A DNA stretch of 64,000 bases, taken from Pseudomonas sp. MPC6 (GTDB lineage Bacteria > Pseudomonadota > Gammaproteobacteria > Pseudomonadales > Pseudomonadaceae). The stretch's first letter is position 1. Each line of letters starts with the position of its first letter. The stretch covers positions 62,001 through 126,000 of the forward strand of contig NZ_CP034782.1 in the NCBI RefSeq assembly GCF_006094435.1, given 5' to 3'. The position numbers were made by a program, and so were the translations under genes. Shown one piece after another: positions 45,710 to 64,000 of this stretch. Under the pieces are notes generated by a model. The model had not been told where the DNA came from, searched no databases, and saw nothing but the letters and a program-made list of their open reading frames with translations.

Positions 45710-46843
45710 ATGCCTGTAACCGGAAGCCACCCCCTCACTATTGATAACTGGCAATCTGCCCGTGCCGAAGGGATGATCAATCTACAAAGTATAATCCCGA
45801 ACCTGATGACGATTAACGCTCAAACAGTGTATCGGCTTAACTATCAGGCCATAAACTACGATCTGCATGAAATTCCCAGCGTAGCAAGGCTGTTGAGTCA
45901 TCCGGCGGTGGCCGGCCTGGTAGTGATGAAGGCTAGTGGGGAGGTGTTGCTTGAGCACTATAATAATGGCAACGGCCACAATACGACTTTTTCTATTCAG
46001 TCCTCGACCAAAGCGATCGGCTACCTGTTGCTTAATCGTGCGCTTAAGGCTGGCAAAATATCTCTGGACGATAAGGTAGAGCAATATATTCCTGAGATCG
46101 GTTCAGGATTCTGGGGGCGTAGTGTCGCCGATGTGGCAGCGATGGCCGTGCATCACAATGTCGCTGAACTGGCTGCCTATACCGGTGATCCGGAAGCGAT
46201 GGTAATGTATGACCGTGATGAGCGGGTAATCGGACTGGCGCGTAACGATGAGAAGGAAACGTTACGGCAGTTTATTGAACAGATTGAAGCTTCGGGTGAA
46301 GCAGGCTCAAATCAGTGGCAGGGCAAAATCGCCAATTACGCAACGATTAATACCAGTGTTCTGGGTTTGATGTTGGAAAATGCGATGCAGGTGCCTTTGA
46401 TGGCTCAGGTGCGGGTCCTATTGCATGAGATCGGTGGTGAAAATCCGGTTCATATAGGTACCGATTTTGAAGGTGCTCCGGTGATAGGGGCAGGCATGCT
46501 AATGTCTACTGTCGATTTTGCCCGCTATGGTCGACTGCTGATCGCCGACAAGGAACAGGTACTCAGCGACCGGGAAGCGGCAAGCATGCATGGTGAACTG
46601 GTTCCGGCCGATCTTACTTATGTCGATTCTCGCTACTACAAGTCGGCGATCCATAATGAGTTTGGTATTGGTCACAGTGGCTGGGCTGGGCAGCTGATAT
46701 GGGCTGATCCTGAAAGCGACATCGTTATCGCAATGAATGGACAGCTGGCGAGCGAACTGCCGGCTCCATTTGACCACTTTTTAAAGCTTTATCAGGGCGC
46801 GATTGATATTGTTAAGTATTTCCGTTCCGTTCCGAGCCTGTGA
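45710..46843 (+). CDS. NylB-like serine hydrolase (beta-lactamase fold)
   Basis: The enzyme has about 377 residues and belongs to the family of 6-aminohexanoate-dimer hydrolase (NylB) and related esterases. ATG 45710 has AAGGAG six bases upstream. The N-terminal LTIDNWQSA resembles NylB. Catalytic landmarks are SIQSSTKAIGYLL (Ser-x-x-Lys), IANYATINTSVLGLMLENA (Tyr-x-x-Asn-like) and FGIGHSGWAGQLIWADP. No signal peptide is evident, so it is probably cytoplasmic, as NylB is. It could hydrolyse a linear amide of an amino acid. The substrate is inferred from the neighbours. Confidence 0.75.
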   Translation: MPVTGSHPLTIDNWQSARAEGMINLQSIIPNLMTINAQTVYRLNYQAINYDLHEIPSVARLLSHPAVAGLVVMKASGEVLLEHYNNGNGHNTTFSIQSSTKAIGYLLLNRALKAGKISLDDKVEQYIPEIGSGFWGRSVADVAAMAVHHNVAELAAYTGDPEAMVMYDRDERVIGLARNDEKETLRQFIEQIEASGEAGSNQWQGKIANYATINTSVLGLMLENAMQVPLMAQVRVLLHEIGGENPVHIGTDFEGAPVIGAGMLMSTVDFARYGRLLIADKEQVLSDREAASMHGELVPADLTYVDSRYYKSAIHNEFGIGHSGWAGQLIWADPESDIVIAMNGQLASELPAPFDHFLKLYQGAIDIVKYFRSVPSL

Positions 46844-46897
46844 CTGAATGAGAAAGGGCGGCCAGATGCGCACGATTTGATTAATTTACTTCTTTTT

Positions 46898-46924
46898 GCC
46901 CCGCAGGATCAGCGGGGCATTTTT
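46898..46924. terminator. Terminator between convergent hydrolase and AraC genes
   Basis: GCCCCGC (46898-46904) and GCGGGGC (46912-46918) pair and are followed by ATTTTT; a T-run precedes the stem on the other side. It can serve both genes. Confidence 0.85.
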
Positions 46925-46947
46925 CGATACTGCATCACGATTCGCCT

Positions 46948-47973
46948 TTACGCCTTTTTATTACGGTATTTGGCGGGAGTTTCCCCCGTCCACTTTTTAA
47001 ACGCTTTGATAAAAGCACTAGTATCGCTGAAGCCCAGTAAAAAACTAATCTCTTTAATCTCCATCGTTAGTGCTTCGATATTCTGGATGGCCAATTCACG
47101 ACGGGTGTTATCCAATATTTGCGCAAAGTTGATTCCTTGTTCTTTTAACTGCCTTTGCAGTGTTCGCGGTCCAATGGCCATGATATTAGCCACGTTTTCG
47201 AGTCGGCTTTGGCCTCCAGGCAGCGTTTGGCGAATATGGTAGGAAACCGATGCTATCAGATCAAAATCATCGGGAGCCGAATTAATCAAATCAATCAAAT
47301 GCTTTTTGATGATTGGGAACAGCTTTAAATCTGCTGAAGGCACCGGCTTGTCTTCCAGAGTCGCAGAGTAAGTGATGGTGTTGACTGGCTGGTCGAAGTA
47401 GGGGGTGATGCCCAGGAGCTTTTGATAGGTTGATATATCGCCTAGTGGATCATGTTGAAAATACACCCCAGAAGGTGTCACGCTATGCTCACAGAGCTGA
47501 TCGACAACGTGCTTAACATAAGCCATCGCAAACTCAGCATCCTGATTTTTATGCACTACCTTGGGATGCAAGATTGCATACTCGATCCCAATCCTGTCAC
47601 CGCGGTTGATATAGGCCATCCGAGTTCCTCCCTGTGACGATTTCAGAAAAGTGGCCATATTGTACAACGCAGCACCTACAGTCGGGGAGTTGAGTACCAC
47701 ATAACCAAATGCACCCCATTTTGCCGGATTTTGCTGTGCGCCCAGTTCAAGGCCAAGCATCGGGCGTTTGGTTAATAAGGCAGCGAGTTCTAACAGGTGG
47801 GTGAAGTTATCCAGTCTGACCGTCTGATAAGGGTCATCTATGGCCTTGAGGTCGATGTCGGCTTGATCAAACAGCGGCTTAGGATCGAAACCCTCGCGTC
47901 TTAAAATTGCTGCCAGATCAACTGCCACCGACGCGCTGACAGTTGCTATATCGGAAGGCGTTTTATTCTGCAT
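46948..47973 (-). CDS. AraC-family regulator (arabinose-binding-like domain), 1
   Basis: The regulator has 341 residues from ATG 47973 (MQNKTPSDIA). The N-terminal sensing domain (residues about 20-200; KWGAFGYVVLNSPTVGAALY) is of the OruR/ArgR-like type, and the C-terminal AraC domain has NVANIMAIGPRTLQRQLKEQ and IKEISFLLGFSDTSAFIKAF. It is a close paralog of the regulator at 51005-52033. It is convergent with the NylB-like gene. Regulators of this type often respond to amino acids or amines. Confidence 0.85.
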   Translation of the reverse strand: MQNKTPSDIATVSASVAVDLAAILRREGFDPKPLFDQADIDLKAIDDPYQTVRLDNFTHLLELAALLTKRPMLGLELGAQQNPAKWGAFGYVVLNSPTVGAALYNMATFLKSSQGGTRMAYINRGDRIGIEYAILHPKVVHKNQDAEFAMAYVKHVVDQLCEHSVTPSGVYFQHDPLGDISTYQKLLGITPYFDQPVNTITYSATLEDKPVPSADLKLFPIIKKHLIDLINSAPDDFDLIASVSYHIRQTLPGGQSRLENVANIMAIGPRTLQRQLKEQGINFAQILDNTRRELAIQNIEALTMEIKEISFLLGFSDTSAFIKAFKKWTGETPAKYRNKKA

Positions 47974-48054
47974 CAAGCCGTTCCTTTCGGTTAGAAAACT
48001 AATGGTAAGTCATTTTTAGGCTATGTCCTAATAGCCTGTTGTAAGAGCTAATCT

Positions 48055-49210
48055 AAAGACAGGCATCCGCCCGGGACGTCTGCCCATCATGGGTACTCAA
48101 GCCCTTCACTACTGGCTGGCTCAACTGAGCCAGCTCAGCACCCAGCAGAAATCCACGCTGCATCATCCCTGCAGAACCCACCCGCGACAGCGGTACTGGA
48201 TGGCTTGCCTGCCTTGCAGAGTTGTCCGCATTGCCAAGCCAAGGCTGAGCGTCTTGCTCCCTGAGGATGGTCACGCGGCTTACGTCGCTATCGTTGCCGT
48301 GCTTGCCGCCGGACTTGCTCCGCGTTGTCAGCAACAAGCCTGGCCCGCCTGCATTACCCCGAGCGCTGGAAAGACTAGGCCAGGCACTGATTGACGGCCT
48401 AAGCGTACCGCAAGGCGGCCAAGACGTGCAGCATCAGCCAAAACACGGCTTTCCTCTGGCGGCACCGCTTCCTGACTTCAGCGGCCCAGCATCACGCCAA
48501 GCATGAAGCAGGAATTGTTGAAGTAGATGAGACGTTCTTTCTAGAGTCCTGCAAAGGTCAACGACAGCTGCCACGGGCACCGCGCAAACGCGGTGGAGTC
48601 GGCGTGACCCGAGGCACGGGTAAAGACCAAATCCCGGTGATGGTGGTGCGCGACCGGGAGGGGCATACCGCGGACTTCAAGCTGGCCAAGCTCGATGGCA
48701 AGCATGTACGAGAAGCGCTTCTACCGCTGATCGATCAGGAGTCCGTGCTCTGCTGTGATGGGGCGGCGGTATATGCCAGTTTTGCCCGGACGCAGGGCAC
48801 TACACATCACGTAGTGCATGCCCGTCCCGGCCAGCGCGTACGCCAGGGCGCTTTCCATATCCAGAACGTCAATGCCTACCACAGTCGCCTGAAGAGCTGG
48901 ATGGCTCGCTTTCATGGCGTGGCCACCCGCTACCTCCCGAACTATCTGGGCTGGCGCCGTATGCTGGAGCGTTACCAGCAGAGTATTCGGCCGGATCACT
49001 GCATCCAGGAGGCGCTAGGGCGCACCATGCAACGCGCTATTGGGATATAGCTATTTATTAGTCGTTAATCGTGACGCGATTCTACCATCAATTGTCGCAA
49101 ATCATCTATTCAGGGTGTAGTGATCCGGGTGACGATGGCAACTCAAAATAATTACAAACCAATAGAGATACAGGAGGTGAACTATGTCTAGTCCTCATCG
49201 TAAAGGCCCA
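48055..49210 (+). repeat. 1156-bp direct repeat, copy B
   Basis: It is the second copy of 43949-45104, ending in codon 9 of the intact aminotransferase gene. Copy B contains the same decayed transposase. Confidence 0.9.
48089..49049 (+). pseudogene. IS1595-family transposase, decayed, copy B
   Basis: It carries the same stop codons and frameshifts as copy A, so it was duplicated after inactivation. Confidence 0.85.
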
Positions 49211-50458
49211 ACTCAGAAAGAATTTATGGATAAATACGCTCAGTACTTCGGTATTGATCGTGTTAAAGCCACACAGGACATGGGTTTTTACTTTATCGAA
49301 GACGGTGGCGAAGGCGCCCATGTATGGGATACCGCAGGCCGTAAGGTGCTGGATTTCTGGGGCGTGGGTGGGGTTAACAATCTCGGACACCGCAATCCTG
49401 TAGTCATGGCTGAATTTGAAAAAGCCATGAAAGAAGAGGATTTTGGCTCACTGTTCTGGTTCTCAGAGGCTAAGGGTGAGTTGGTTAAGAAATTAGCCGA
49501 AACCACGCCTGAGCGCCTGAAAATAACATTGCCCTGTGTGACCGGTTCTGAAGCGGTGGATGAGGCGATCAAGCTGGCGCGTGGTGCGACTGGCCGGGTG
49601 GAAACGCTGTACTGCTCTAACGCATACCACGGTCACACTGGCATCTCGTTGTCGATGATGACTGCCGATGATTGTCGCTCTTGGTGCGAGCCGCTGGTGC
49701 CTGGCTTCCGTCAGTTCGATTATGACGATGCTAGCTCGCTGGCTAAACTCATCTCCAATCGTACCGCCGCGGTTATTGTTGAAGTGGTGCAGACCGATTT
49801 CAGCGGGCTACCGTCAAAAGATGCAAATTTCTGGTCTGAAGTGCGCCGCCTGTGTGACGAGAACGGCGCCAAGCTGATCATTGATGAAGTGGTAACAGGT
49901 ATGGGTCGCCTGGGTGAAGTATGGGGTTGTAATCTGTGGGATATCGACCCGGATATGATCTGCGTAGGTAAAGGTTTCTCCGGTGGTGTATTCCCAATGG
50001 CTGCGGTTATCTGTGCGGAAGATGTGCTGGACTTCTGGGGTGTTAACCCTTATCGCTCGATGTCCTCTTATGCATGGTCCAATGTTGGCTGTCGCACTAC
50101 CAAGGTGGCTATCGAGGAAACAGAGCGTCTATTGCCAAGTGCTATGAAGGTCGGTGATAAGCTGGAACAAGCGATTCTGGATATTCAGAAGCAGTACCCG
50201 GACCATATCACCAACTTGAATCGCACCGGTATGCTGTTCTCTATTGAACTGAACGAGCAAAACTTCACTGTATTAGAAGCCTTCGGTGGTATGTGGCAGC
50301 GCGATGTCGCTGTGGTTGCCAGCTCGCAGCACGCGCCGATCTTTAAGCTTTACCCACCGATGATCCTGAATGACGAACATGTGGCTGAATTCGCTAACAA
50401 GTTTGAAGATTGTACCAAGCATGCCCAGGGCGGAGGTCATCAAGGTTGGTTTGACTAA
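49184..50458 (+). CDS. Class III (PLP) aminotransferase 1
   Basis: The enzyme has 424 residues and a strong ribosome site (CAGGAGGTG). PLP-binding landmarks are LPCVTGSEAVDEAIKLARGA, AYHGHTGISLSM, LIIDEVVTGMGRLGEVWGC (Asp for the pyridine nitrogen) and DMICVGKGFSGGVFPMAAVI (Schiff-base Lys). It groups with omega-amino acid, dialkylglycine and phospholyase-type class III enzymes. It is followed by ridA, which removes reactive enamines from PLP reactions. Its 5' end lies inside the 1156-bp direct repeat. Confidence 0.88.
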   Translation: MSSPHRKGPTQKEFMDKYAQYFGIDRVKATQDMGFYFIEDGGEGAHVWDTAGRKVLDFWGVGGVNNLGHRNPVVMAEFEKAMKEEDFGSLFWFSEAKGELVKKLAETTPERLKITLPCVTGSEAVDEAIKLARGATGRVETLYCSNAYHGHTGISLSMMTADDCRSWCEPLVPGFRQFDYDDASSLAKLISNRTAAVIVEVVQTDFSGLPSKDANFWSEVRRLCDENGAKLIIDEVVTGMGRLGEVWGCNLWDIDPDMICVGKGFSGGVFPMAAVICAEDVLDFWGVNPYRSMSSYAWSNVGCRTTKVAIEETERLLPSAMKVGDKLEQAILDIQKQYPDHITNLNRTGMLFSIELNEQNFTVLEAFGGMWQRDVAVVASSQHAPIFKLYPPMILNDEHVAEFANKFEDCTKHAQGGGHQGWFD

Positions 50459-50571: not shown

Positions 50572-50991
50572 ATGAGCACCTTTATACCCGTCATTCCCAA
50601 AGGGATGGAAACTTATTACAACGACTATCAGTTTTCCCCGGCTGTGCGCAGCGGTGACCTGCTGATTATCTCCGGTCAGCTAGGCTTTAATCCCGATGGT
50701 TCGCTACCTGAAGACCCGGCCAACCAGATCAATAATGCCTTTCAGGCAATCGGCTATATTCTGCAGAGCGAAGCTCTGGATTTCAGCAATATCATCGCTA
50801 TCGACAGTTTCCATATCGGCGATATGCATAAGCAGTTTGAGTTGATGATCGGTGAGAAGGCAAAATTCATCGCTGAACCCCATCCGGCCTGGACCGCTGT
50901 TGGCGTTGCAAGCCTGGCGATGCCTGAGGCCGTGGTTGAGATCAAGGTAACTGCGCGCGTTGTAGATCAGGCTAAAGTCTCCTTCATATAA
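50572..50991 (+). CDS. ridA: RidA-family enamine/imine deaminase
   Basis: The 139-residue protein has the YjgF/RidA fold: FSPAVRSGDLLIISGQLGFN, EDPANQINNAFQAIGYIL and a C-terminal AVVEIKVTARV. The Arg usually found in the active-site motif is not obvious: the family IE(V/A)xxxA is EIKVTAR here. RidA proteins hydrolyse imine or enamine intermediates released by PLP enzymes. Position directly after an aminotransferase supports this. CCGAGGTAA precedes the ATG. Confidence 0.82.
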   Translation: MSTFIPVIPKGMETYYNDYQFSPAVRSGDLLIISGQLGFNPDGSLPEDPANQINNAFQAIGYILQSEALDFSNIIAIDSFHIGDMHKQFELMIGEKAKFIAEPHPAWTAVGVASLAMPEAVVEIKVTARVVDQAKVSFI

Positions 50992-51004
50992 GGTGGCTTA
51001 CTTT

Positions 51005-52033
51005 CTATCCTTTCCTATTTTCCCTGTACTGTCCGGGACTTTCCCCTGTCCATTTCCTGAATGCCTTGATAAAAGCACTGGTATCGCTATAGCCAAGTAA
51101 GTGGCTGATCTCTTTGAGCTCCATAGTTGAGTTACCCAGATGCTCTGTTGCCTGTTCTTGGCGCATCTCCTCTACCATTTGAGTAAACACAAATTTCTGT
51201 GCTTTTAAGTGTCGTTGTAGTGTTCTGGATTCGATCGCTAATGCGGCGGCCACATTTTTCAGGTTGCTTTGGCGAAGGGGCAGGAACTGACGGATCTGAT
51301 AGGTCACAGAGCCAACAAGATCATTACTGTCAGGTTGGGCGTTGGCCATATCCACCAAATGCTGTCGGAGAACCGGGAAAAGCTGCAGGTCCGCGGATAA
51401 AACCGGCTTATCCTCCAGTGGCAGTGGGAAGGTGATGCAGTTAACCGGTTGATCAAAATAGGGCGTTACACCATAGAGTTTCTTATAGACGGATAACTCT
51501 GAGATGGGGGAATGCTCAAAGTGCACCGCAACCGGTGATACACGTTTCTCACAGAGTCTGTCGACAATATTTTTTACATAAGCAAGGGATACCTCGGCAT
51601 CCTGGCTTTTGTGCACGACCCCGGGATGCAGGATTGAATACTCAATGCCAAAGATTCTGCTGTCACGAATGCAGGCGATGTGTGTGCCCGATTGCCAGGG
51701 CTTAAGAAACGTTGCCAGGTTACGCAAAGCCGCTCCGATGGTGGGTGAGTTCAGCACCAGATAACCAAAGGCCCCCCATTTAGCCGGATCCTGATTGATC
51801 CCCATAGTCAGTCCGAAGTGCGGGCTAAGGGTTATGTCAGCCGCCAGTTCCAATAGGTAGGTAAAGCGATCTAACCTGATCTTTTGATAGGGATCCTGGA
51901 TTATTTTCAGATCGATATCTGCTTTCTCGAATACTGTCTCCGGATCCAGCCCTTGCCTACGAATCAGCGCCGCCACATCAACTGCTGCAGCAGCTCGAAT
52001 CATTGGGATGCCAATTGATGGAGTTGGATTCAT
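51005..52033 (-). CDS. AraC-family regulator (arabinose-binding-like domain), 2
   Basis: The regulator has about 342 residues from ATG 52033 (MNPTPSIGIPM); the upstream frame is AT-rich. It shares most landmarks with the regulator at 46948: KWGAFGYLVLNSPTIGAALR, YFDQPVN, and ISHLLGYSDTSAFIKAFRKW. It lies between ridA and the kinase gene, pointing away from the kinase. The two paralogs may each control one aminotransferase block. Confidence 0.85.
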   Translation of the reverse strand: MNPTPSIGIPMIRAAAAVDVAALIRRQGLDPETVFEKADIDLKIIQDPYQKIRLDRFTYLLELAADITLSPHFGLTMGINQDPAKWGAFGYLVLNSPTIGAALRNLATFLKPWQSGTHIACIRDSRIFGIEYSILHPGVVHKSQDAEVSLAYVKNIVDRLCEKRVSPVAVHFEHSPISELSVYKKLYGVTPYFDQPVNCITFPLPLEDKPVLSADLQLFPVLRQHLVDMANAQPDSNDLVGSVTYQIRQFLPLRQSNLKNVAAALAIESRTLQRHLKAQKFVFTQMVEEMRQEQATEHLGNSTMELKEISHLLGYSDTSAFIKAFRKWTGESPGQYRENRKG

Positions 52034-52204
52034 AGAAAAAGCCTCATGAGATGAAATGGCTGAATAACTGTAATGGATTATTAGGCAGATATATTGATCT
52101 GTCGTCAAATGACGGTCATATGTGTTCAATGGACATGATGGTTTGTTTTGACGTGAGTCACAATGAAAAGGTCATCAATGAAAATAAAAAATAGAGAGGT
52201 GGTG

Positions 52205-53230
52205 ATGGCGGATTTCTATCAGCTTGATCCCGATCAACAGGTTGAACGGTTAAAGAAGCTTGGCCTGAAAGCGTTGGAGCAGTGGAGCATTGAGCAGCCT
52301 GAGCTGAGCCTTATGAAGTACCGGGAAAATGCCGTATTTGCCGTGACCGATGCTACGGGTGCCAAGCGGGCATTGCGCATTCATCGTCCCGGGTATCACA
52401 GCACGGTTGCACTTAACTCTGAGCTGGCCTGGATGGAGGCCTTAAAAGCCGACGGCATCCAGACGCCTGAGGTTATCCATACAACAAACGGCAAGCTTCT
52501 GGTAATTGCCGAGGTGAACGAAGTGCCTGAACCGCGTCAGTGTGACCTACTGGGCTGGGTAGACGGTGAGGTACTGGGCACAATTGAAGGCAGCGAAGAA
52601 CAATCGACGCAAGAGCTCCACACTAATTACTATTTGGCTGGCCAGATGGCAGCACGAATCCATTGTCATGCAGGGCAATGGCAGTTGCCTGAAAGTTTTT
52701 TTCGTCCAGTGATGGATGCTGAGGGTTTGGTTGGAACGAAGGGTTATCTGGGTAACTTCCGCCTTTTGTCCGGTCTGGGCGATGATCAGGTGGCGCTGCT
52801 GGACAAAGCTGCTGATGCGGTAATGGATACCTTGAATGTCTTTGGTCAATCGTCTGATCGCTTTGGCTTGACGCATGCCGACTTCCTGCCGGAAAACCTG
52901 CTGATTGATGGCGATATCATACGCATCATCGACTTTGATGATTGTGGTTTTGGCTGGCACATGATGGATATTGCCACTTTCCTGTTTTTCTTGCTGGGCG
53001 AGCCCGGTTATGACGCCGCCTACCAAGGCCTGGTCGAAGGGTACCGTTCCGTGCGTGAACTGCCTGACAGCCATCTGGAGTTGCTGCCGACCTGCCTGCT
53101 GGCACGGGGCCTGACCTATCTAGCCTGGGTTCACAGTCGTTATGAAACAGAAACTGCCCAAGAGATAGCTCCGGTTCTTATTGAGGGGGTTTGCGCTCTA
53201 GCTGGAGACTACCTGACCAATGGTAAATAG
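52205..53230 (+). CDS. APH-family small-molecule kinase
   Basis: The kinase has about 341 residues from ATG 52205 (MADFYQLDPDQQ), preceded by AGAGAGGTGG. The protein-kinase-like fold shows the nucleotide loop NAVFAVTDATGAKRALRIHR and the catalytic loop FGLTHADFLPENLLI, with metal-binding IRIIDFDDCGFGWHMMDIAT. This is the phosphotransferase family of homoserine, choline and hydroxylysine kinases. A kinase beside class III PLP enzymes recalls the pair hydroxylysine kinase and phospho-lyase. The substrate here is unknown. Confidence 0.82.
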   Translation: MADFYQLDPDQQVERLKKLGLKALEQWSIEQPELSLMKYRENAVFAVTDATGAKRALRIHRPGYHSTVALNSELAWMEALKADGIQTPEVIHTTNGKLLVIAEVNEVPEPRQCDLLGWVDGEVLGTIEGSEEQSTQELHTNYYLAGQMAARIHCHAGQWQLPESFFRPVMDAEGLVGTKGYLGNFRLLSGLGDDQVALLDKAADAVMDTLNVFGQSSDRFGLTHADFLPENLLIDGDIIRIIDFDDCGFGWHMMDIATFLFFLLGEPGYDAAYQGLVEGYRSVRELPDSHLELLPTCLLARGLTYLAWVHSRYETETAQEIAPVLIEGVCALAGDYLTNGK

Positions 53231-53241
53231 GAGTTATGACT

Positions 53242-54414
53242 ATGACGTCTCCAGCTTTATCCGTCGCGGCGTTGATTGCCGCCTCTGCACTGTCAGCGAC
53301 AGGGGCACTAGTGTTCAATATTTTTCCTCTGTTCCTCAGTGCAATCGCCGGCCAGTTTGGCTTTGATGATGAGCAACTCGGGCTGCTGGGTAGCGCTTAT
53401 CTGGGCGGTTTTTCCCTGGTGGCATTGACCGCTGTTTACTGGATTACCCGGATACCCTGGAAAATTGCAGGAGTTGCTGGAGTGATCGTTATCTGCCTCA
53501 GCGTTCTTGCTTTGTATAGAGTGCAGGTTCCTGAACTTATCAACGCAGTGGTTGCCCTGTTTGGTGCAGGCAGCTGTGTCATCTTTACTATTTCGCTCCG
53601 GGTGCTGTCTCACGCCCGGGACATTGATAGGGCCTACGGCATCAAACTGTGTGCCGAGATGATCCTGGCCGGTACCGTCATGTTTGTAATGAGCAGCTAC
53701 GTTCTCAGTGCGTTCGGGTTTACTGGTTTTATAACCGGCCTTGCACTGGTCTACGCCGTTTCTGGTTTCGCATTGATCTGGTTACCTCAGGCGGGCGATT
53801 TTGAGCCGGTCGAGAATCAGGCTTTGACCAGGTTGTTGTTTACCAGGGGAGCATTGCCTGCCTGGCTGGCTTCTGCAGCCCTGTTTATGCAGTTTGCTGT
53901 GATGAGTGCTTTGTGGGGGTTTATGGAACGGATAGGCACTTCCGCGGGCGTTGCTGACTCCGTTGGCAATGTGCTGACGCTGGCGCTGGTTGCCGGCTTA
54001 GGTGGCGCCTTTCTAGCGGTTTTACTGGGTGATCGGTTCGGTCAGTTAAAACCTCTGTCGGCTTGCTTTGTGGTTATTGTTGCTGCAGTTGGATTGCTAA
54101 TTAATGGTAACGGGGTCGTAGTTTATGCCCTATGTGCCTGTCTGATCTCTGCAGCGTTGCAATTTGTCGTTGCCTACCAGATGGGGCTGATCACTGCCCT
54201 TGATCGGCATGAAGTGTTTACTACCCTGATCCCCTTCTTTCTTGCTGCAGGCGGTGCTGTCGGCCCGGGTGTAGCTGGCCTGATGTTGGATGGTACTGGT
54301 TTTACCCCGGTCTATATGGTGGCCGTTGTTGTGACCATTATCTGCTTACTGATTACGCTCTGCGTCGTGAAGCTGGTGCCGAGCACTGAATTGCAACCCG
54401 TAGGATTAATTTGA
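53242..54414 (+). CDS. MFS transporter
   Basis: The 390-residue protein has about 12 hydrophobic segments, beginning MTSPALSVAALIAASALSAT. The cytoplasmic loop typical of MFS is weak (YWITRIPWKIAG between helices 2 and 3). I chose ATG 53242 because AGGAG lies eight bases upstream; ATG 53236 is too close. It is 11 bases after the kinase stop and two bases before the SDR start, so it is in one transcription unit and probably imports the substrate of the cluster. Confidence 0.8.
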   Translation: MTSPALSVAALIAASALSATGALVFNIFPLFLSAIAGQFGFDDEQLGLLGSAYLGGFSLVALTAVYWITRIPWKIAGVAGVIVICLSVLALYRVQVPELINAVVALFGAGSCVIFTISLRVLSHARDIDRAYGIKLCAEMILAGTVMFVMSSYVLSAFGFTGFITGLALVYAVSGFALIWLPQAGDFEPVENQALTRLLFTRGALPAWLASAALFMQFAVMSALWGFMERIGTSAGVADSVGNVLTLALVAGLGGAFLAVLLGDRFGQLKPLSACFVVIVAAVGLLINGNGVVVYALCACLISAALQFVVAYQMGLITALDRHEVFTTLIPFFLAAGGAVGPGVAGLMLDGTGFTPVYMVAVVVTIICLLITLCVVKLVPSTELQPVGLI

Positions 54415-54415
54415 G

Positions 54416-55252
54416 ATGAATAAGTGTTTGACTGGAAAGGTCGCTCTGGTGACCGGGGCTCGCTCCGAACGTGGTATGGGTTATGCCGCTGCACTAAAAC
54501 TGGCTGAGGAAGGAGCGGATATCGTTATGACCACCCGCTCGGGAAGCTTTAAAGGTGATCCCGCCGAGTTTGAAAGTGACCAGAGTTTTGAACAATTTCG
54601 TTCGCTGGCCAGGAACGTTGAAGCCCTGGGGGTGCGCTGCTTTGCGTTACCCATGGATGTCACCGACCGGGAGCAAGTAAATCGTGTTGTTGACTACAGC
54701 TGTGAACAGTTGGGGGGTATCGATATCCTGTTTAACAACGCTGGTATTGGCTTTGGTGAATTGTTTATGGATACCTCTCCTGAACAGTTCAACAATGCCT
54801 GGAACATTAACGTCATGGGGACGATTCATGTTTCCCAAGCGGTAATTCCGAGAATGCTGCAGCGTGGTGGTGGTTCCATAATCAATAACGCTTCAATTTA
54901 TGGCTTAGGCGGTGCCGCATATGTATCAGCATATGTGGCGACCAAGCATGCGATTGTCGGCCTGACTAAATCCATGGCGTTGGAGCTGGGTGAACAGAAT
55001 ATTCGCGTGAACGCCATTTGCCCGGGCATGGTTGTGACTGAGATGGGCGATATTGAATATCAGTTGATAGCTGATGCAGAAGGTATCATTTTTGAAGAAG
55101 CAAAACAGGGTTTAGCTGATCAGAACGTACTTAAACGTGGCGCAGAGCCAGCTGAAATTGCCGATGCAGTGGTTTATCTCGCAAGTGAAAAATCGAGCTT
55201 TGTCACAGGCATTGCGATGCCGATTGCTGCAGGTCAGTCAGTCGGACTCTAA
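54416..55252 (+). CDS. Short-chain dehydrogenase/reductase (SDR) 3
   Basis: An SDR of 278 residues: VTGARSERGMGYAAALKLAE (an unusual Glu-Arg in the Gly-rich loop), DILFNNAGIGFG, SIINNASIYG, catalytic YVATKHAIVG and CPGMVVTEM. It starts right after the MFS stop and 32 bases before the second aminotransferase. It likely oxidises or reduces an alcohol or aldehyde of the pathway, for example a semialdehyde produced by transamination. Confidence 0.82.
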   Translation: MNKCLTGKVALVTGARSERGMGYAAALKLAEEGADIVMTTRSGSFKGDPAEFESDQSFEQFRSLARNVEALGVRCFALPMDVTDREQVNRVVDYSCEQLGGIDILFNNAGIGFGELFMDTSPEQFNNAWNINVMGTIHVSQAVIPRMLQRGGGSIINNASIYGLGGAAYVSAYVATKHAIVGLTKSMALELGEQNIRVNAICPGMVVTEMGDIEYQLIADAEGIIFEEAKQGLADQNVLKRGAEPAEIADAVVYLASEKSSFVTGIAMPIAAGQSVGL

Positions 55253-55284: not shown

Positions 55285-56616
55285 ATGAGGTGCGTAGTGC
55301 ATTCAATTAACAGAGAAAAAACATTAGAGCTGTACACGCAGTATCTGCACAAACACAAGCTTCCGGTGTACAAACAGTTCAACTGGGAGGTGGTTGAAGG
55401 TAGACGCGAAGGCGCTTTTATCTGGGATATGAATGGTAAACGCTATTTCGACTGCCATACCTGTGGCGGAACTTATAACCTAGGGCACCGTAATCCTGAA
55501 GTGATCAACGCGGTGAAAAATGCTCTGGATCATCTGGATCTGGGAAACCATCATCTGCCGTCGCCTGTTCGCGCATTACTGGCTGAGCAGTTGGTAAAAT
55601 CTGCCGGTGAAACGCCTGACGGTGAAAAAATGGGCCGCGTGATGTGGGCCAGTGGCGGTGGCGAAGCGATGGATTTTGCGTTCAAGATGGCCCGTGGCTA
55701 TACACGCAAGAACAAGATCTTGTGTCTGGATGGAGGCTACCATGGTCATACCGGGCTAGCGATGGGCGCTGGCGATAAGAAATATACCAAAGCCTGGAAT
55801 ACCAACCCACCGGACTTTGTAAAAGTGCCATGGCAAGATCTGGGCGAGATTGAAAAATATTTTGATGATGATACCGCTGCGGTGACTCTGGAAAGCATTC
55901 CTGCGACTCTGGGGATGACAATTATTCCTCGCAAGGTGATGCAGCACATTCGTAAGGTAACCAAAGAAAACGGCATCCTGATGATTCTCGACGAGATTCA
56001 GACGGGGATGGGGCGCAGCGGTAAAACCTGGTGTTTCCATCACTACGGCATCATGCCCGATATCTTCGCCATTGGTAAAGGCTTCTCCGGTGGAGTGATG
56101 CCCAGCGCAGCTACCATCTATCGCGATGAGATGGAGCAGGTGTTTGCCGAAAACCCGCTGATCCACTTCTCCTCTTTTGGTGGTAATGAGATCTCCTGTG
56201 CAGCTTCCAGTGTTGCACTGACTAAGGCGACTGACCCTGAATGCCTGGCGTATACCCGTAAGCTAGCGGCATTCTTTCGCGAAGAGTTCGATAAGTTAAG
56301 GCAAGAGACCGATAAAATAGCAGGACTGCGCCAGCTTGGGTTGTTTCAGGCCATCGAATACAAGGATGTGGCGACCTGCATCTCCGCCGTTGAGCGCCTC
56401 AATAATAATGGCGTGTTCTGCCTGTTCTCCAACAATGACCGCATCAGTTCCCAGTTTATGCCGCCATTAACCCTGACTATGGATGAGGCCCGTGAGCTGA
56501 TGGATCTGGTGCGTAAGAGTGTTAATGAAGCCGAGAGCTTTGATCTGGAAGGTTCGGATTACTTCAAGACACAGACTGAATCCCGTATCAAGAACGTGTT
56601 GCATCAGCTGGACTGA
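55285..56616 (+). CDS. Class III (PLP) aminotransferase 2
   Basis: The enzyme has 443 residues. Landmarks are GRVMWASGGGEAMDFAFKMA, GGYHGHTGLAMG, ILMILDEIQTGMGRSGKTWC and DIFAIGKGFSGGVMPSAATI with the Schiff-base Lys. ATG 55285 has no clear ribosome site; GTG 55297 with GAGGTG before it is an alternative. It shares with aminotransferase 1 the GKGFSGGV signature and a similar N-terminus (LYTQYLHKHKLPVYKQ). It ends the kinase-MFS-SDR-aminotransferase unit. Confidence 0.87.
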   Translation: MRCVVHSINREKTLELYTQYLHKHKLPVYKQFNWEVVEGRREGAFIWDMNGKRYFDCHTCGGTYNLGHRNPEVINAVKNALDHLDLGNHHLPSPVRALLAEQLVKSAGETPDGEKMGRVMWASGGGEAMDFAFKMARGYTRKNKILCLDGGYHGHTGLAMGAGDKKYTKAWNTNPPDFVKVPWQDLGEIEKYFDDDTAAVTLESIPATLGMTIIPRKVMQHIRKVTKENGILMILDEIQTGMGRSGKTWCFHHYGIMPDIFAIGKGFSGGVMPSAATIYRDEMEQVFAENPLIHFSSFGGNEISCAASSVALTKATDPECLAYTRKLAAFFREEFDKLRQETDKIAGLRQLGLFQAIEYKDVATCISAVERLNNNGVFCLFSNNDRISSQFMPPLTLTMDEARELMDLVRKSVNEAESFDLEGSDYFKTQTESRIKNVLHQLD

Positions 56617-56715: not shown

Positions 56716-57348
56716 ATGGCCCGTAATCAGGTTCAATTCCAGCCCGGTCTTTCGCTCACTAACTTCCTTAAGTGCTACGCAACCGAGGAGCAGTGTCGCG
56801 AAGCGCTCTTCAAGCTACGTTGGCCAGCCGGTTTCATCTGCCCCGATTGTGGCCATCAGGGCGCCTGCTGCCAATTGGCGCGGCGGCTGTATCAGTGCAA
56901 CCGCTGCCATCATCAGGCCTCGCTGACCGCGCGGACAATTTTTGACAGTACCAAGCTCCCTCTGACCACCTGGTTCTTGGCGATCTACCTGCTGACTCAA
57001 CGTAAGAACAGCTTGTCGGCCTTGCAGCTCTCGCGTGAACTGGGCGTGAGCTACAACACGGCCTGGCAGTTCAAGCACAAGATCATGCAGGTGATGTTCG
57101 AGCGTGAACGAAACACGGTGCTCAGTGGCCGCATTGAAGTCGATGATGCCTATCTGGGTGGTGAGCGGCCGGGAAAGCGCGGTCGCGGCTCGGAGAACAA
57201 GGGCGGCGATTTTTTCCGGCTCGATGCATCCATCACACAGTTTAAAGGCGGCTTGTATATCGACCGGGCGTACTGTGATCTTGCTCCGGAGAAAGTGGAG
57301 GCGGTGATTAATGTCGCCAAACAGGTAACGGGGATTTTGAGCAGTTAG
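56716..57348 (+). pseudogene. IS1595-family transposase N-terminal part fused to an unrelated C-terminal segment
   Basis: Residues 1-160 are an ISXO2-like transposase: zinc ribbon CPDCGHQGACCQLARRLYQC NRCHH, then LTTWFLAIYLLTQRKNSLSA and IEVDDAYLGGERPGKRGRGS with the first Asp. After ENK the sequence changes to FFRLDASITQFKGGLYIDRA YCDLAPEKVEAVINV and stops, which does not belong to a transposase. The join is a deletion endpoint. The origin of the last 48 residues is unknown to me; they may be the end of a former neighbour gene. Confidence 0.75.
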
Positions 57349-58497: not shown

Positions 58498-60045
58498 ATG
58501 GCGAAACAACCTGATCAATCGTTGCACGGAGGAAAGCAGATGGCAGTGTTCACACCCAATGCGCAGGCAGCGGCGAGCACTGGTGCACCTTCGAACTTCA
58601 TATCGGCCTGGCCCCAATACAGGGGCCAGGCCGAATCGCAAGTGAAACGACTCCAGATCCGTATCGCCAAGGCAACACGAGAAGGCAGGTGGGGCAAGGT
58701 GCAAGCCTTGCAGCGACTGCTGACTCGCTCGTACAGCGGCAAAATGTTGGCCGTGAAGCGAGTGACGGAAAACAGAGGCAAGAGAACACCGGGTGTCGAC
58801 GGCAAAATATGGTCGACCCCGGACGCCAAATCGAAGGGAGCGCAGGCGTTGAGGCATCGTGGTTATCGACCACAACCGCTGAGACGCCTTTACATACCCA
58901 AAAGCAATGGCAAGAAGCGCCCGCTGGGAATCCCAACGATGCGGGATCGTGCAATGCAGGCGCTATGGAAACTGGCACTTGAGCCGGTTGCGGAAACGCG
59001 TGCAGATCCAAATTCGTATGGGTTTCGGCCGCAGCGATCCACTGCCGATGCAATCGCACATTGCTTCAATGCACTGGCGAAACGTGGTTCGGCGCATTGG
59101 GTACTTGAAGGTGACATTCGAGGCTGTTTCGACAATATCAGTCACGATTGGCTGCTCGACAACGTACCCATGGACAAGGTGGTTCTGCGCAAATGGCTTC
59201 GAGCGGGGTATGTCGATCAGGGAGCCTTGTTCGCAACGGAGGCAGGAACCCCGCAAGGGGGAATCATTTCTCCGGTACTTGCGAATTGGACGATGGATGG
59301 CCTGGAAGATGTCGTCAATGCAAGCGTGGCTTCGACAGCGCGCAAGCGTAAGCCATTCAAGATACACGTCGTGCGATATGCCGATGATTTCATCATCACG
59401 GGGGCCACGAAAGCTGTTTTGCAACATCAGGTTCGTCCTGCAATTGAGGCGTTCCTGAAAGAGCGAGGGTTGGAACTCTCTGATGAAAAGACTCAGATAA
59501 CGCATATCTCACAAGGCTTCGATTTTCTGGGCCAGAACGTACGCAAGTACGCCGGCAAGCTACTCATCACTCCGGCTCGTAAGAGTGTGAAGGCATTGCT
59601 GGATAAGGTCCGGGAAATCGTGAACGCAAACAAGACGGCGACTCAAGCGAACTTGATCTTGACCCTGAACCCGGTGATCCGAGGATGGGCCATGTATCAT
59701 CGCCATGTTGTCGCCGCCAAGCGTTTCGCATGGATCGACCATCAGATTTGGCAAGTGTTATGGCGCTGGGCTGTTCGTCGGCACGCCATGAAAAGTGCCC
59801 ATTGGGTAAAACAACGCTACTTTCGTGTCGTGGGTCGACGGCACTGGGTTTTCGCCACCCAGGAGAAAGCGCGCGGCATGAGTCAACCCGCTTGGCTTTA
59901 TGCCGCGGCCAGTGTTTCGATCGTGCGGCATATCAAAATATGCAGTGCAGCGAACCCGTTCGATCCGGCATGGACGTTTTACCTTGAGCGCCGAAGAGCG
60001 CATCGTCAGGTAGCCCGGTCTTATTCAGGCTGCTGGAAGGCTTGA
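58498..60045 (+). CDS. ltrA: Group II intron reverse transcriptase/maturase (intron 2)
   Basis: The 515-residue protein has the reverse transcriptase core (SYGFRPQRSTADAIAHCFNA, GTPQGGIISPVLANWTMDGL, VRYADDFIITG) and domain X (GWAMYHRHVVAAKRFAWIDH). As in intron 1 there is no HNH domain. It appears intact. The stop overlaps the first bases of domain V. Confidence 0.93.
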   Translation: MAKQPDQSLHGGKQMAVFTPNAQAAASTGAPSNFISAWPQYRGQAESQVKRLQIRIAKATREGRWGKVQALQRLLTRSYSGKMLAVKRVTENRGKRTPGVDGKIWSTPDAKSKGAQALRHRGYRPQPLRRLYIPKSNGKKRPLGIPTMRDRAMQALWKLALEPVAETRADPNSYGFRPQRSTADAIAHCFNALAKRGSAHWVLEGDIRGCFDNISHDWLLDNVPMDKVVLRKWLRAGYVDQGALFATEAGTPQGGIISPVLANWTMDGLEDVVNASVASTARKRKPFKIHVVRYADDFIITGATKAVLQHQVRPAIEAFLKERGLELSDEKTQITHISQGFDFLGQNVRKYAGKLLITPARKSVKALLDKVREIVNANKTATQANLILTLNPVIRGWAMYHRHVVAAKRFAWIDHQIWQVLWRWAVRRHAMKSAHWVKQRYFRVVGRRHWVFATQEKARGMSQPAWLYAAASVSIVRHIKICSAANPFDPAWTFYLERRRAHRQVARSYSGCWKA

Positions 60046-60077
60046 GCCGTATGAGGGGAGACTCTCACGTACGGTTC
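60044..60077 (+). ncRNA. Group II intron domain V (intron 2)
   Basis: The 34-base hairpin begins GAGCCGTATGAGG and ends CACGTACGGTTC, the conserved domain V. Confidence 0.88.
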
Positions 60078-60118
60078 TTAGGGGAGGCAGGAGTGGTAAC
60101 ACTCCTGCTTTACCCGAC

Positions 60119-60576: not shown

Positions 60577-60797
60577 TATGGGCAATAGCCGCCGCGAGGT
60601 GCTCGCGGCGGCTAGAAACACCGAAATGAGCGGGTGATCTGATCGTTTTTGATCGATTTGCCGCTTTCAAAATCAGCGGGGGCTGAAGTCGGCCAGAAAT
60701 GCACGGCTACTTCAGAGGATCCTTAGGTGTTGATCGCTAGTGTCGTTACCAGACACCTCTGACAGAGGCTAAGGTGTCCGGCTACCCCAAAACGCTA

Positions 60798-62390
60798 TTA
60801 CTTACCCATCAGGATGCGCACTATGTCATCCCAGACCGGCAGCCATTTGGCAGTATCTTCCTTGCTATGCTGGGGGGTTACGATCAGCATATTGAAGTAC
60901 GGCATAATCATGATGCCGCGGTTCCAGGCGTAGGCGTGGCTGAATTCAAACAACCCGCCAAAACCGATGCCGACTGACGCCGAAATAGGGTCGTGGCATC
61001 TTTCCGGAATGAAGGTATAGCTGATGCGGTTGCCCATGGTTTCAATCAGAAACGGAGCGTTGTATTTTTCGATGGATGCGTTCATTTCATCGACAATATC
61101 TTGCACATGCTTACCAACCGAACCATAAACTTCGTCGGTCAGCACTTCTTCCAGGGTCACACGCAGTGCTTTGGCAGACATAGTATTTCCGGAGAGCAAG
61201 GTGCCTAGCCTACCAAAGGATGCTTCACCGAATAGACCCGCAGCTTCGGTCTGACGATATACCTCTTGGGCGATCTCTTCGGTCATGCCGAATACACCTG
61301 TTGGGATGCCACTGGCAATCGCTTTGCCGCAGGTCCAAAAATCATAGTGGCCATGAAGGCCAAGCTCTCCACAGGCACCTGAGGGGCCGGCAGAAAGCGT
61401 ATGAGTTTCGTCATAGGCCAGTTTGGTGCCGTACTTTTGACAAAGCCTATAGGCTTTTTTATTCCAGTCATCTTTCGGCCATGCCCAGCCGAAGTTACTC
61501 ATGATAGGTTCCATCATCACGCAGGCAACTTGGCCGTCTTTAAGCACGGCTTCCAAAGAATCGAGATCGTTAAAGCTGAAGATCCGTGTGCGATCTCCAA
61601 CGTCAGCATACTGATACACGTTCATTTCGTGCACGCGTGTTATCACACCCTCCGCGGGCATGATTTTCTGTGTCTCATCAAGGTTGCCGTGGTAGGTAAA
61701 ATTTGGGATGGCAATGATGTTACGACCGGTCACTTGACGGGCAATTGCCAGTACTGCGCGGTTGGAATCCGAGGCTGACAGGTTGGCCATCCAGTGGCTG
61801 AGACCAAATTTTTTGGCCATTAATTCACAGCAGATCACACCGTCTTCATTGCCTGACATGGTGTGAATACCATTTTCCAGCATCAGGGCGGCTGCCGCTT
61901 TAATGGCGGGGTTGAGACCGCCATGGCCAAACATGTCGGGAGTATCGCCCAAGCAGAAGTCGAGGTATTCATTGCCATCGATATCCCAATATTTATTGCC
62001 ATAAGCACGCTCGCAATAAATGTTCTGGGGCATATTGTTCCAGTCTTTTTGGTGGTTGCCTAGCACCCCAAATGGCGATGATTTTTTGGCGCGAACAGTC
62101 ATTGCTTTACTTTTAGGCTGCTTAGCAAACCATGTTGCCATTTCATGCTCTGCCAGTTTCATAACTTCTTCGCGCGGTATCACACCGGGCAAGTTGGTGG
62201 GATAGGAGTCCTCAATGGTTGCATTGGGTGAGTATTTCAGCGCTGTTGGGGTCATGATGCTACCCCCGGCAGCGGCTGCCACTCTGGCTGGAACCGTGGC
62301 CGCTATGGCGCCAATACTGGCTATTCCCGTCATATTTATGAACGACAGGGCGCCGGTTATTTTTATGAAATCTCGCCGATTTGTAGCCAT
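60798..62390 (-). CDS. Class III aminotransferase 3 with a Tat-type signal peptide
   Basis: The protein has 530 residues. The N-terminus carries a twin-arginine motif (NRRDFIK), a hydrophobic stretch (TGALSFINMTGIASIGAIAA) and an AxA-like end, so export to the periplasm is predicted. The mature part is glutamate-1-semialdehyde aminomutase-like: NLSASDSNRAVLAIARQVTG, TYHGNLDETQ, AYDETHTLSAGPSGACGELG and FWTCGKAIASGIPTGVFGM with the Schiff-base Lys. AGGAG precedes the ATG. It is downstream of the amidase gene in the same direction. Periplasmic PLP enzymes are rare; PvdN of Pseudomonas is a known Tat-exported example. Confidence 0.85.
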   Translation of the reverse strand: MATNRRDFIKITGALSFINMTGIASIGAIAATVPARVAAAAGGSIMTPTALKYSPNATIEDSYPTNLPGVIPREEVMKLAEHEMATWFAKQPKSKAMTVRAKKSSPFGVLGNHQKDWNNMPQNIYCERAYGNKYWDIDGNEYLDFCLGDTPDMFGHGGLNPAIKAAAALMLENGIHTMSGNEDGVICCELMAKKFGLSHWMANLSASDSNRAVLAIARQVTGRNIIAIPNFTYHGNLDETQKIMPAEGVITRVHEMNVYQYADVGDRTRIFSFNDLDSLEAVLKDGQVACVMMEPIMSNFGWAWPKDDWNKKAYRLCQKYGTKLAYDETHTLSAGPSGACGELGLHGHYDFWTCGKAIASGIPTGVFGMTEEIAQEVYRQTEAAGLFGEASFGRLGTLLSGNTMSAKALRVTLEEVLTDEVYGSVGKHVQDIVDEMNASIEKYNAPFLIETMGNRISYTFIPERCHDPISASVGIGFGGLFEFSHAYAWNRGIMIMPYFNMLIVTPQHSKEDTAKWLPVWDDIVRILMGK

Positions 62391-62581
62391 ATGTGAACTC
62401 CTAGAATTCCTACATGCAGGTTGTCGGTAGTAGGCTTGGTGTTATGTTGGCCCGATAGATGTTGAGTCGGCCAATGCGGGCAGTTGGGAGCGCAAACTTC
62501 TTTGTTACCAACGTAAAAATAAGCATCAATAAGGGAGCGAACCTTACGGCTCGCCCAATGGCCGATGACTTTCTTCAGAAA

Positions 62582-64000
62582 TTACTTGACCACGTTCAGC
62601 GGTGGACGCTGGTCAAACCACTCAGGCCGAGCCCGTTCGATTTGGCCGGCTAGTTGGAAAATTCGGTCTTCTCTGCACCAGGGAGCGTTGAGCAGCACCC
62701 CAATGGGCAAGCCGTTGGGGGCTAATCCTGTGGGTATGCTCATGGACGGGATGCCGGTTTCGTTGCCTGGGATAAGGTAGCGCGAGTCCCTGATCATCCC
62801 CCGCATCCATTTCATCGCGGCTTCGGGAGTATCGCAGAGGTCAAAAGGGGAGAAACCGGAGCCTGCACCGGCTTTGGCGGTCAGTCCTGTATCTACCGGG
62901 GTCAGCAGCAGGTCATATCGATCGAAAAGACGGCCGAAACCGCGGGTGAAACCGCCGTTATTGGCGAAGTGCGCCAGGGTGTCTTCGGCGCTAAACTCGC
63001 TTCTGGCAGCCTTTACCAGCTGTCGGAAAACCGGCTCCAGGCTGTCGTCCGTCAATCGTTTGCCGAACTGTTCGGCGAATGCTGCCCAGTAACGGGCGCT
63101 CCCGATCCAGGTGCTTTCGACACCTTTCCACATTGCCTTCCAGTCGCAGATGTCATCACCGTTGACCTCCTCTACCTCATGGCCAAGCCCGATCAATAGC
63201 TCGGCTATTTTGCGGGTATTGGCGATGATTGTGGGGGCGAGATCTTCCTCCTGACCCCATCGGCCAGTGCTGAACGCGATGCGAAGTTTGCGAGGCTCCT
63301 GATTCACGTCCAACAGATAGCTGTGGCCCGGGTCTGGGATCGGCATAAAGCTGTCGCCGGGCCGATGCCGGCACAAGTAGTCGTAGACACCTGCCTGATC
63401 GCGCAGGGTGCGGGTGATCACTCCTTCGTAGACGAAATGTGTGCTGAGTTCATTACCGCATGAAGGCGGAAAGGGCAGTCGACCGCGGGTTGGTTTGAGT
63501 CCGATCAGGCCGCAAATCATCGCAGGGCTGCGGGTAGAGCCTCCGCCGTCGCTGGCCGAAGCAATGGGCACTATGCCAGCGGCTACTGCCGCCGAGGATC
63601 CCCCCGAGGAGCCTCCAGAGGTATAGTCCAGGTTCCAGGGGTTGAGGGTGATGCCATTGATCAGCGATTCAGTGGTAGCAGCGTAACCCAGTGGGGGCAC
63701 CGCGGTGCGTCCCAGCAGGTTGAAGCCGGCATTACGGAGGTTGAGGGTCAGAGGGTCATCGGTGTTGCGACGTATGCCCTGCATAAAGAGCGCGCCACAC
63801 TCCTGCAGACGGCCTTTCATACCCGAGCCGAGGTCCTTCATTAGGCTGGGGACCCCGTAGAATTGTCCCTCTGGATTGATACCGTCTCGGTGAGGAGCTT
63901 CAACTACATCTTCGAATACCTCGAGTACGGCGTTAATCTGGGGGTTAACCCGCTCGACTGCGCCGGCGCACTGCTTTGCCAGTTCTTCGGCAGTTACTTC
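62582..64000 (-). CDS. Amidase-signature hydrolase, NylA-like, 5' end outside the window
   Basis: The frame is open from the stop at 62582 to the right edge (473 codons seen). The start lies beyond the edge. The amidase signature is [20 protein letters not shown] with [19 protein letters not shown], and the catalytic Lys is in [19 protein letters not shown] and LKPTRGR are also found in 6-aminohexanoate-cyclic-dimer hydrolase (NylA) and related amidases. It would hydrolyse a linear or cyclic amide, and together with the NylB-like enzyme and aminotransferases forms a plausible amide-to-semialdehyde route. The substrate is unknown. Bases 62391-62581, before the aminotransferase, contain no gene. 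Confidence 0.82.

Follow-up and report, generated by a model that had tools for sequence, protein, structure and literature searches.

A kinase-linked clade of class III PLP enzymes in a gene island of Pseudomonas sp. MPC6 split by mobile elements, with a possible role in amino-alcohol catabolism

The DNA analyzed here is a stretch of 64,000 nucleotides from Pseudomonas sp. MPC6 (hereafter the window), corresponding to bases 62001–126000 of a contig of 328,214 bases (NZ_CP034782.1; C3 in coordinates below) in a genome of 7.22 Mb in four contigs. The last third of the window contains an island of genes for putative amine catabolism. Its conserved core is composed of an APH-family kinase, a short-chain dehydrogenase/reductase (SDR), a class III pyridoxal 5'-phosphate (PLP) enzyme designated AT2, an AraC-type regulator, and a porter of the major facilitator superfamily (MFS). 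Judged from sequence, the core appears, on balance, to be a kinase/phospho-lyase unit for the catabolism of an amino alcohol or its corresponding amino ketone.

In the route that we infer, the carrier would import the compound and the AraC regulator would sense it. The SDR would interconvert the ketone and alcohol forms of the amine, in a direction that can only be predicted, and the kinase would phosphorylate the hydroxyl group of the amino alcohol. AT2 would then eliminate phosphate and ammonia to give an aldehyde or ketone, and this carbonyl product would later be oxidized by enzymes for which no gene was seen in the island. Five further proteins (AT1, which is another class III PLP enzyme, a RidA-family protein, a PLP enzyme with a twin-arginine translocation (Tat) signal, an amidase, and a PF00144 hydrolase) could serve peripheral steps, or could be separate modules assembled by mobile elements. 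The families, linkage, fusions, residue changes, and clade membership described below can be read directly from the sequences. The kinase/phospho-lyase reading is based on the match of the kinase to the solved structure 6ef6, its linkage to PLP enzymes, the solved phospholyase 5g4i as the neighbor of one relative, aromatic catabolism genes beside others, the loss of a Glu/Arg pair in AT2, gene fusions, an exchange of enzymes in Colwellia, and rhizobial loci with a PF01663 gene.

The kinase and its neighborhood

The best match of the kinase among solved structures is 6ef6 (E 2.6e-45, residues 37–353, 158 bits). We take 6ef6 to be the (S)-1-amino-2-propanol kinase of Mycobacterium smegmatis from the RMM/AAUM microcompartment; the structure listing describes it only as an aminoglycoside phosphotransferase, and the title of the study on that kinase appears among the references of two papers. 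The sole other solved matches are amicoumacin kinases (best E 8e-15, 58 bits). H233, D235, and D252 are invariant in the 26 aligned rows, including the kinase of the island. The amicoumacin kinases, together with the membership of the two proteins in APH and PF00144, would suit a detoxification system, in which an antibiotic or another toxic amine is inactivated by the kinase and by the hydrolase with its beta-lactamase fold and is exported by the MFS carrier. This is highly improbable, as 6ef6 is by far the better match, and breakdown is indicated by the linkage and fusion to PLP enzymes and SDRs and by the ring-cleavage genes that accompany some relatives.

A scan of genome contigs with the single kinase sequence as query returned no relative, and an alignment was used as the query instead. 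The following counts refer to the best 80 of the 569 relatives confirmed in this way. A class III PLP enzyme is encoded within 1.5 kb of 71 of the 80 kinases, 68 times on the same strand (tblastn). The partner is of the AT2 type or the related B type in 15 of the 71 loci and of the phospholyase type in 41; the other 15 show an extra rhizobial PLP enzyme, which sits beside a phospholyase-type enzyme. Twelve of 13 near-duplicate rhizobial loci were omitted from the comparison of PLP enzymes used for the YNN motif (below). SDR genes are found within 4 kb of 25 of the 80 kinases. Many of the loci are short, so the absence of a gene from them is weak evidence.

In Paenarthrobacter aurescens TC1, the kinase relative has as its PLP neighbor a phospholyase of known structure, 5g4i (446/446 residues). 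Phenylacetate or homoprotocatechuate genes are present in 17 of the 80 loci, with phospholyase-type partners; 15 of these 17 are from Rhizobium or Mesorhizobium and are not independent. Genes of these pathways also lie beside kinase/phospholyase pairs on four annotated plasmids (L010, L096, L097, and L098) of Sphingobium, Paenarthrobacter, Mesorhizobium, and Agrobacterium. Such neighbors are expected if an aryl-ethanolamine is converted to an arylacetaldehyde, and these pairs are candidates for an aryl-ethanolamine route. Among the titles listed, from a literature of which most subscription papers were outside reach, none describes such a kinase/phospholyase route.

AT2 and the Thr/Gln clade

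Class III aminotransferases contain a Glu/Arg pair (E211 and R398 in GabT), which we take to be their keto-acid pair. The AT2 clade has T208 and Q390 at these positions, each in 45/45 rows: where the QGE motif has its Glu, these enzymes have Thr, and the Arg is exchanged for Gln. The 45 rows are 31 AT2 relatives (P0241–P0271, AT2 itself included) and 14 B-type proteins. Five sequences were dropped from this count: L050 (PSS/Gln, on a long branch), L057 (internal frame change), the proteins L046_154 and L032_188, which resemble glutamate-1-semialdehyde aminomutase (GSAM), and L011, whose protein is already among the 31. Gln is also seen in all 89 farther AT2 relatives listed, and PAT in all 17 of these that were aligned. 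K265 and D236, presumably the PLP lysine and aspartate, are kept in 45/45 rows and are invariant in an alignment of 31 rows. The Glu/Arg pair is retained in PatA, GabT, and ArgD of E. coli. It is missing from the lyases compared here, which have Thr/Lys (5g4i), Cys/Lys (human 6tor), or Thr/Thr (the protein of the PbfA model). The first-pass annotation had treated AT2 as an aminotransferase, a role that the loss of the pair speaks against.

Trees were built from 89 and 39 chosen rows, with the PbfA-model locus L122 left out of the larger one. AT2 and the B-type proteins group together, with an SH-aLRT support of 97 in the 89-row tree and 96/94 in the 39-row tree; the deepest forks are weakly supported (74/86 in the latter). 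No characterized member of this clade was found in the model and solved-structure searches. Against the PbfA model, AT2 scores 177 bits, with a cut-off of 525. Many of the AT2 relatives with source names are labelled as putrescine or acetylornithine aminotransferase.

With about four first-look candidates scored per genome, the only AT2 relative found among 369 genomes of the class, and among 390 of the order, is that of the host itself. None was seen in 140 genomes of the family to which the Kineobactrum genome (L025) belongs. In the family of Henriciella (Hyphomonadaceae), 5 of 105 genomes carry AT2.

Fusions and linkage of the core

In all five of these Hyphomonadaceae genomes, the kinase and the SDR are fused (blastp). 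The gene order at the five loci is the kinase-SDR fusion, AT2, and an open reading frame (ORF) which, from the start of its sequence, probably encodes a TonB receptor. A relative of AraC regulator 2 (50–52% identity) is located near AT2 in four of the five loci; the contig of the fifth ends before this position. Fusions of a PLP enzyme of the AT2 clade to the kinase are clear in L047, L053, L056, L058, and L059 and less clear in L057 (blastp).

The 24 kinase clusters nearest to the kinase of the island (P0002–P0025) were compared with relatives of AT2 and AT1 by the size of the longest contig of each cluster, the only contig used for the matching. The size agrees with that of a close AT2 relative in nine clusters, with that of a close AT1 relative in four, and with either in 11. 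AT1 relatives agree in contig size with AT2 relatives as well. As the equal-sized contigs are as short as 7.5 kb, these matches point to tight linkage.

A second gene set and exchange of the PLP enzyme

The same contig contains a second, partly parallel set about 20–35 kb past the end of the island (L006, C3:142109–160952). It includes a kinase, a PLP enzyme sharing the Thr/Gln of AT2, a PF00144 hydrolase, three MFS genes, a GSAM-like enzyme, and an arginase-family gene, and further carries genes for an AraC regulator, an acyl-CoA dehydrogenase, and an AMP ligase. Identities to the island are 49% for the kinase, 48% for the MFS carrier next to it, and 50% for the relative of the Tat-signal PLP enzyme. 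A locus of Colwellia (L032) resembles this second set in its PF00144 gene, kinase, MFS carrier, GSAM-like PLP enzyme (76% identity), and AraC regulator, and adds two genes of the aldehyde dehydrogenase family. There, the slot of the Thr/Gln enzyme beside the kinase is occupied by a phospholyase-clade enzyme.

Phyllobacterium and Mesorhizobium carry two closely alike B-type relatives with PAT and Gln (L123 and L124; about 7703–10260). In both, the PLP enzyme lies downstream of a family-5 solute ABC transporter and a PF01663 phosphodiesterase-family gene, and the 19 kb read yielded no kinase homologue. Loci of this kind fit a substrate that is already phosphorylated. The exchange in Colwellia and the rhizobial loci fit, without proving, the action of AT2-clade enzymes on phosphorylated amines.

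Weighing the kinase/phospho-lyase reading

Several observations weigh against this reading of the core. The aminomutase HemL of E. coli and the rhizobial protein Agro_L098a also have no Glu/Arg pair, so that an enzyme cannot be called a lyase from this loss by itself. The phospholyases 6tor and 5g4i belong to a separate clade (support of 100 and 100/100), and AT2 is placed outside it. AT2 reads GGTYN and lacks the YNN motif, and Gln390 stands at the position of the lysine K412 of 5g4i; therefore, no phosphate-binding residue could be identified in AT2. On the Phyllobacterium plasmid, a kinase relative (H7) is encoded about 63 kb away from the PLP enzyme. The PF01663 genes of the two rhizobial loci score only 36 and 35 bits against the PhnA model (cut-off 408), and PF01663 is a broad family. 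The best solved match of the SDR is carveol dehydrogenase, and the protein is an unspecific member of its family. No aldehyde dehydrogenase was found among the island proteins scanned. Finally, none of the 15 loci with AT2 or B-type enzymes has aromatic neighbors.

AT2 could instead be an ordinary transaminase, the amine being deaminated first and the kinase acting on a later product, similar to the Aut schemes for aminopropanol. AT2 is a PF00202 protein, and among solved structures it matches putrescine and acetylornithine aminotransferases best. In PMC6620236, schemes with a true aminotransferase are proposed for a locus with the same kinds of enzymes, and the Glu/Arg pair is missing from non-lyases such as HemL, too. 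This alternative is nevertheless unlikely, considering the change of Glu/Arg to Thr/Gln in every one of the 45 rows and the fact that most of the 71 linked loci, like that of Colwellia, have a phospholyase-clade enzyme beside the kinase.

Returning to the kinase/phospho-lyase reading, a more specific form of it can tentatively be put forward, with somewhat less than even confidence. The Thr/Gln clade might be a second family of lyases for amino-alcohol phosphates, with an evolutionary origin of its own, coupled by gene fusion to its kinase, which is in turn fused to an SDR, and might act in an undescribed route for non-aromatic amino alcohols with uptake through TonB receptors or MFS carriers.

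The nylon-type hydrolases

The first-pass annotation saw in the island an unusual set of genes for amine catabolism with PLP enzymes, which accords with our reading. It centered the set on hydrolases of the NylA and NylB types, which would open cyclic or linear omega-amino amides such as lactams, with the aminotransferases and the SDR leading on to a dicarboxylate; this part is not borne out. The likeness itself is real. NylA is the best solved relative of the amidase (E 1.5e-69), and NylB is that of the PF00144 hydrolase (E 2e-8). The catalytic residues are kept: K94, S170, and S194 of the amidase align with Lys72, Ser150, and Ser174 of NylA, and the PF00144 hydrolase has the Ser-X-X-Lys motif and the tyrosine (S103, K106, and Y215, the last corresponding to Tyr215 of NylB). 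The residues for substrate differ. The amidase has Thr336 in place of Cys316 of NylA, and the PF00144 hydrolase has Gly265 in place of Asn266 of NylB; Asp181 of NylB corresponds to Asp173 in a weak alignment. The catalytic and substrate residues of NylA and NylB, with their meaning, are those named in PMC7019077.

The same paper reports that nylA and nylB are plasmid-borne in Pseudomonas sp. NK87, which would suit a nylon route here, as would the presence of several PLP enzymes. It also reports homologues of NylA and NylB with about 30% identity and altered substrate residues in Pseudomonas JG-B, a case that speaks for the opposite. According to PMC6061476, caprolactam is degraded in Pseudomonas by an ATP-dependent caprolactamase and an omega-aminotransferase, in a strain that has NylA and NylB homologues as well.

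Both hydrolases are rare near kinase relatives. PF00144 genes are found within 6 kb of two of the 80, and amidase genes within 10 kb of two of the 80 (tblastn). Looser matches are a PF00144 gene about 8 kb off in L043 and amidase-family ORFs in L044, L052, and L055 (45–52 bits, weak); these three amidase matches derive from crude ORF picking that was superseded by tblastn, and they stand outside the tblastn counts. In the five loci from Hyphomonadaceae (18.5–39 kb read), no relative of AT1, the PF00144 hydrolase, or the amidase was found close to AT2. The lack of an aldehyde dehydrogenase among the scanned island proteins also counts against a route to a dicarboxylate. A nylon route is therefore very unlikely, and it was rejected as the principal explanation because of the changed substrate residues and the rare linkage to kinase loci. 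Being so seldom near kinase relatives, the hydrolases do not look central to the island and are apparently not part of the conserved core. As mobile elements split the island, they may be separate modules. The kinase, SDR, porter, and regulator proved to be conserved; of these, the first-pass annotation had noted the kinase, the carrier, and the AraC regulators as lying outside the known nylon-oligomer route.

Division of the island into three blocks

Domain scans verified every gene named in the first-pass annotation: the PF00144 hydrolase, two AraC regulators, three class III PLP enzymes, the RidA-family protein, the APH kinase, the MFS carrier, the SDR, and the amidase (Table 1). The two regulators are related, as had been stated, with 59% identity. 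The genes do not, as had been assumed, form one intact island, since mobile elements cut it into three blocks. Block 1 consists of the PF00144 hydrolase and AraC 1. Block 2 contains AT1, the RidA-family protein, AraC 2, the kinase, the MFS carrier, the SDR, and AT2. The Tat-signal PLP enzyme and the amidase form block 3, and the amidase gene extends to C3:126117 (64117 in window coordinates).

Table 1. Genes and mobile elements of the island, in window coordinates.
Feature	Position	Strand	Basis
1156-bp identical repeat, first copy (IS1595-family element and the nine first AT1 codons)	43949..45104	.	sequence comparison
Second AT1 copy, frameshifted remnant	about 45102..45371	+	three blastx pieces, 83–90% identical to P0131
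PF00144 serine hydrolase, distant relative of NylB, probably outside the core	45695..46843	+	PF00144
AraC regulator 1	46948..47976	-	PF12625+PF12833
1156-bp repeat, second copy, between AraC 1 and AT1	48055..49210	.	
AT1, class III PLP enzyme whose switch positions read Asp/Lys	49184..50458	+	PF00202
RidA-family protein	50572..50991	+	PF01042
AraC regulator 2, oriented divergently to the kinase	51005..52129	-	PF12625+PF12833
APH-family kinase, core of the system	52163..53230	+	PF01636; best solved match 6ef6
MFS carrier	53236..54414	+	PF07690
SDR oxidoreductase	54416..55252	+	PF13561/PF00106
AT2, Thr/Gln-clade class III PLP enzyme, predicted phospho-lyase	55285..56616	+	PF00202; clade support
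Additional IS1595-type piece	56716..57348		
Reverse transcriptase of a group II intron, located between AT2 and the PLP enzyme with Tat signal	58498..60045	+	PF00078, PF13655, PF08388
GSAM-like PLP enzyme with Tat-type signal	60798..62390	-	PF00202; RRDFIK
Amidase-signature enzyme, runs past the window end	62582..64000	-	PF01425

It is possible that the three blocks are unrelated modules juxtaposed by mobile elements, an explanation compatible with that given for the core. Insertion elements and an intron separate the blocks, and the five Hyphomonadaceae loci read have no relatives of AT1, PF00144, or the amidase near AT2. The second set and Colwellia L032, however, both combine a kinase, a PF00144 gene, an MFS carrier, a GSAM-like PLP enzyme, and an AraC regulator. 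The similarity of the two AraC regulators and the position of the AT1 remnant directly upstream of the PF00144 gene also speak against unrelated modules. A simple comparison of 16-base operators between the blocks gave a sole full match, inside the 1156-bp repeat; the remaining printed pairs agree at 13/16 or fewer positions, with no shuffled control, and no shared operator was concluded.

The AT1 remnant lies behind the first copy of the repeat. The nearest of the sequences compared is P0131, a protein of an Amphritea metagenome-assembled genome that also encodes P0121, 97% identical to AT1; the longest contigs of both are of 56,678 bases. The repeat, the remnant, and the two Amphritea proteins suggest a recent transfer between marine bacteria and the plasmid, after which one of two AT1 copies would have been lost. 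Between the remnant and the PF00144 gene there is a short ORF (about 45450–45670, MPRRNIRPDS...), which, from its letters alone, could be the cut-off N-terminus of a GSAM-like PLP enzyme.

Transposase pieces flank the group II intron reverse transcriptase of Table 1. Another such reverse transcriptase is encoded on the opposite strand at 40106–41602 (-), and the flanks of the two are partly similar.

Other proteins of the island and the window

AT1 has Asp/Lys at the switch positions, as do the 18 AT1 relatives aligned, and forms a clade neighboring that of AT2 in the tree. Among the 369 genomes of the class, again with about four first-look candidates each, only the host was found to carry an AT1 relative; none was found in 116 genomes of the family of the Amphritea genome (L013), and plasmids gave no match at E 1e-50. 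AraC 1 scores 217.5 bits against the QhpR model (cut-off 250).

The RidA-family protein scores 43.7 bits against TIGR00004, with a cut-off of 106.25, and reads PAW at the site of the key Arg of RidA. A role as imine deaminase for the lyase was considered but, on these two grounds, is not proposed. Similarly, the SDR is not assigned as an aminopropanol dehydrogenase, as its matches are to generic SDRs.

The GSAM-like PLP enzyme of block 3 scores 357.6 bits against PRK07046 (cut-off 425) and begins with a sequence read as a Tat-type signal, RRDFIK. A periplasmic PLP enzyme would be unusual. Its relative in the second set (C3:147756–149342) has no Tat-type start.

Outside the island, genes of the type for carnitine or betaine breakdown are located at 5926–15760. 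They encode a glycine betaine binding protein, a 3-hydroxyacyl-CoA dehydrogenase, an aldehyde dehydrogenase, a BKACE protein, a Rieske oxygenase, and a GATase-AraC regulator; the sole Aldedh noted (10217–11662) is among these other genes. A gene similar to TauD/gamma-butyrobetaine hydroxylase is present at 29423–30790 (+).

Comparison with known systems

Class III PLP lyases are few, according to PMC8154272 (2021). If the proposal is correct, the kinase-coupled clade adds another group of them and corrects names in databases. Thanks to the fusions, two or three proteins would be enough to test the pathway. The kinase/phospholyase pairs beside aromatic genes suggest a route for aryl-ethanolamines in rhizobia, Sphingobium, Paenarthrobacter, and Pseudomonas.

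A close parallel in gene content is the aminopropanol locus (RMM/AAUM, Aut) known from Mycobacterium and Rhodococcus, in which, as described in PMC4207490, an APH kinase, an SDR, and a class III PLP enzyme occur in one locus with a carrier, a regulator, and hydrolases. The island differs in its regulators, which are AraC and not GntR, and in its carrier, an MFS protein and not an amino acid permease. Neither an aldehyde dehydrogenase nor a microcompartment shell gene was found among the proteins scanned, which for the shell genes cover part of the plasmid. The two hydrolases have their best solved relatives in NylA and NylB and share the catalytic residues with them, whereas the equivalents of Cys316 and Asn266 are changed in the island and the hydrolases are seldom linked to the core in relatives.

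PbfA, the (R)-1-hydroxy-2-aminoethylphosphonate ammonia-lyase, is likewise a class III lyase from which the switch residues are gone (Thr/Thr, one row). AT2 differs from it in its linkage to a kinase and not to aminophosphonate genes, and in its score, far under the cut-off of the PbfA model. Compared with the ethanolamine-phosphate phospho-lyases 6tor and 5g4i, AT2 belongs to another clade, has Gln for Lys, and is without the YNN motif; like them, it is a member of PF00202, has lost the Glu, and occupies the slot beside a kinase of the same family.

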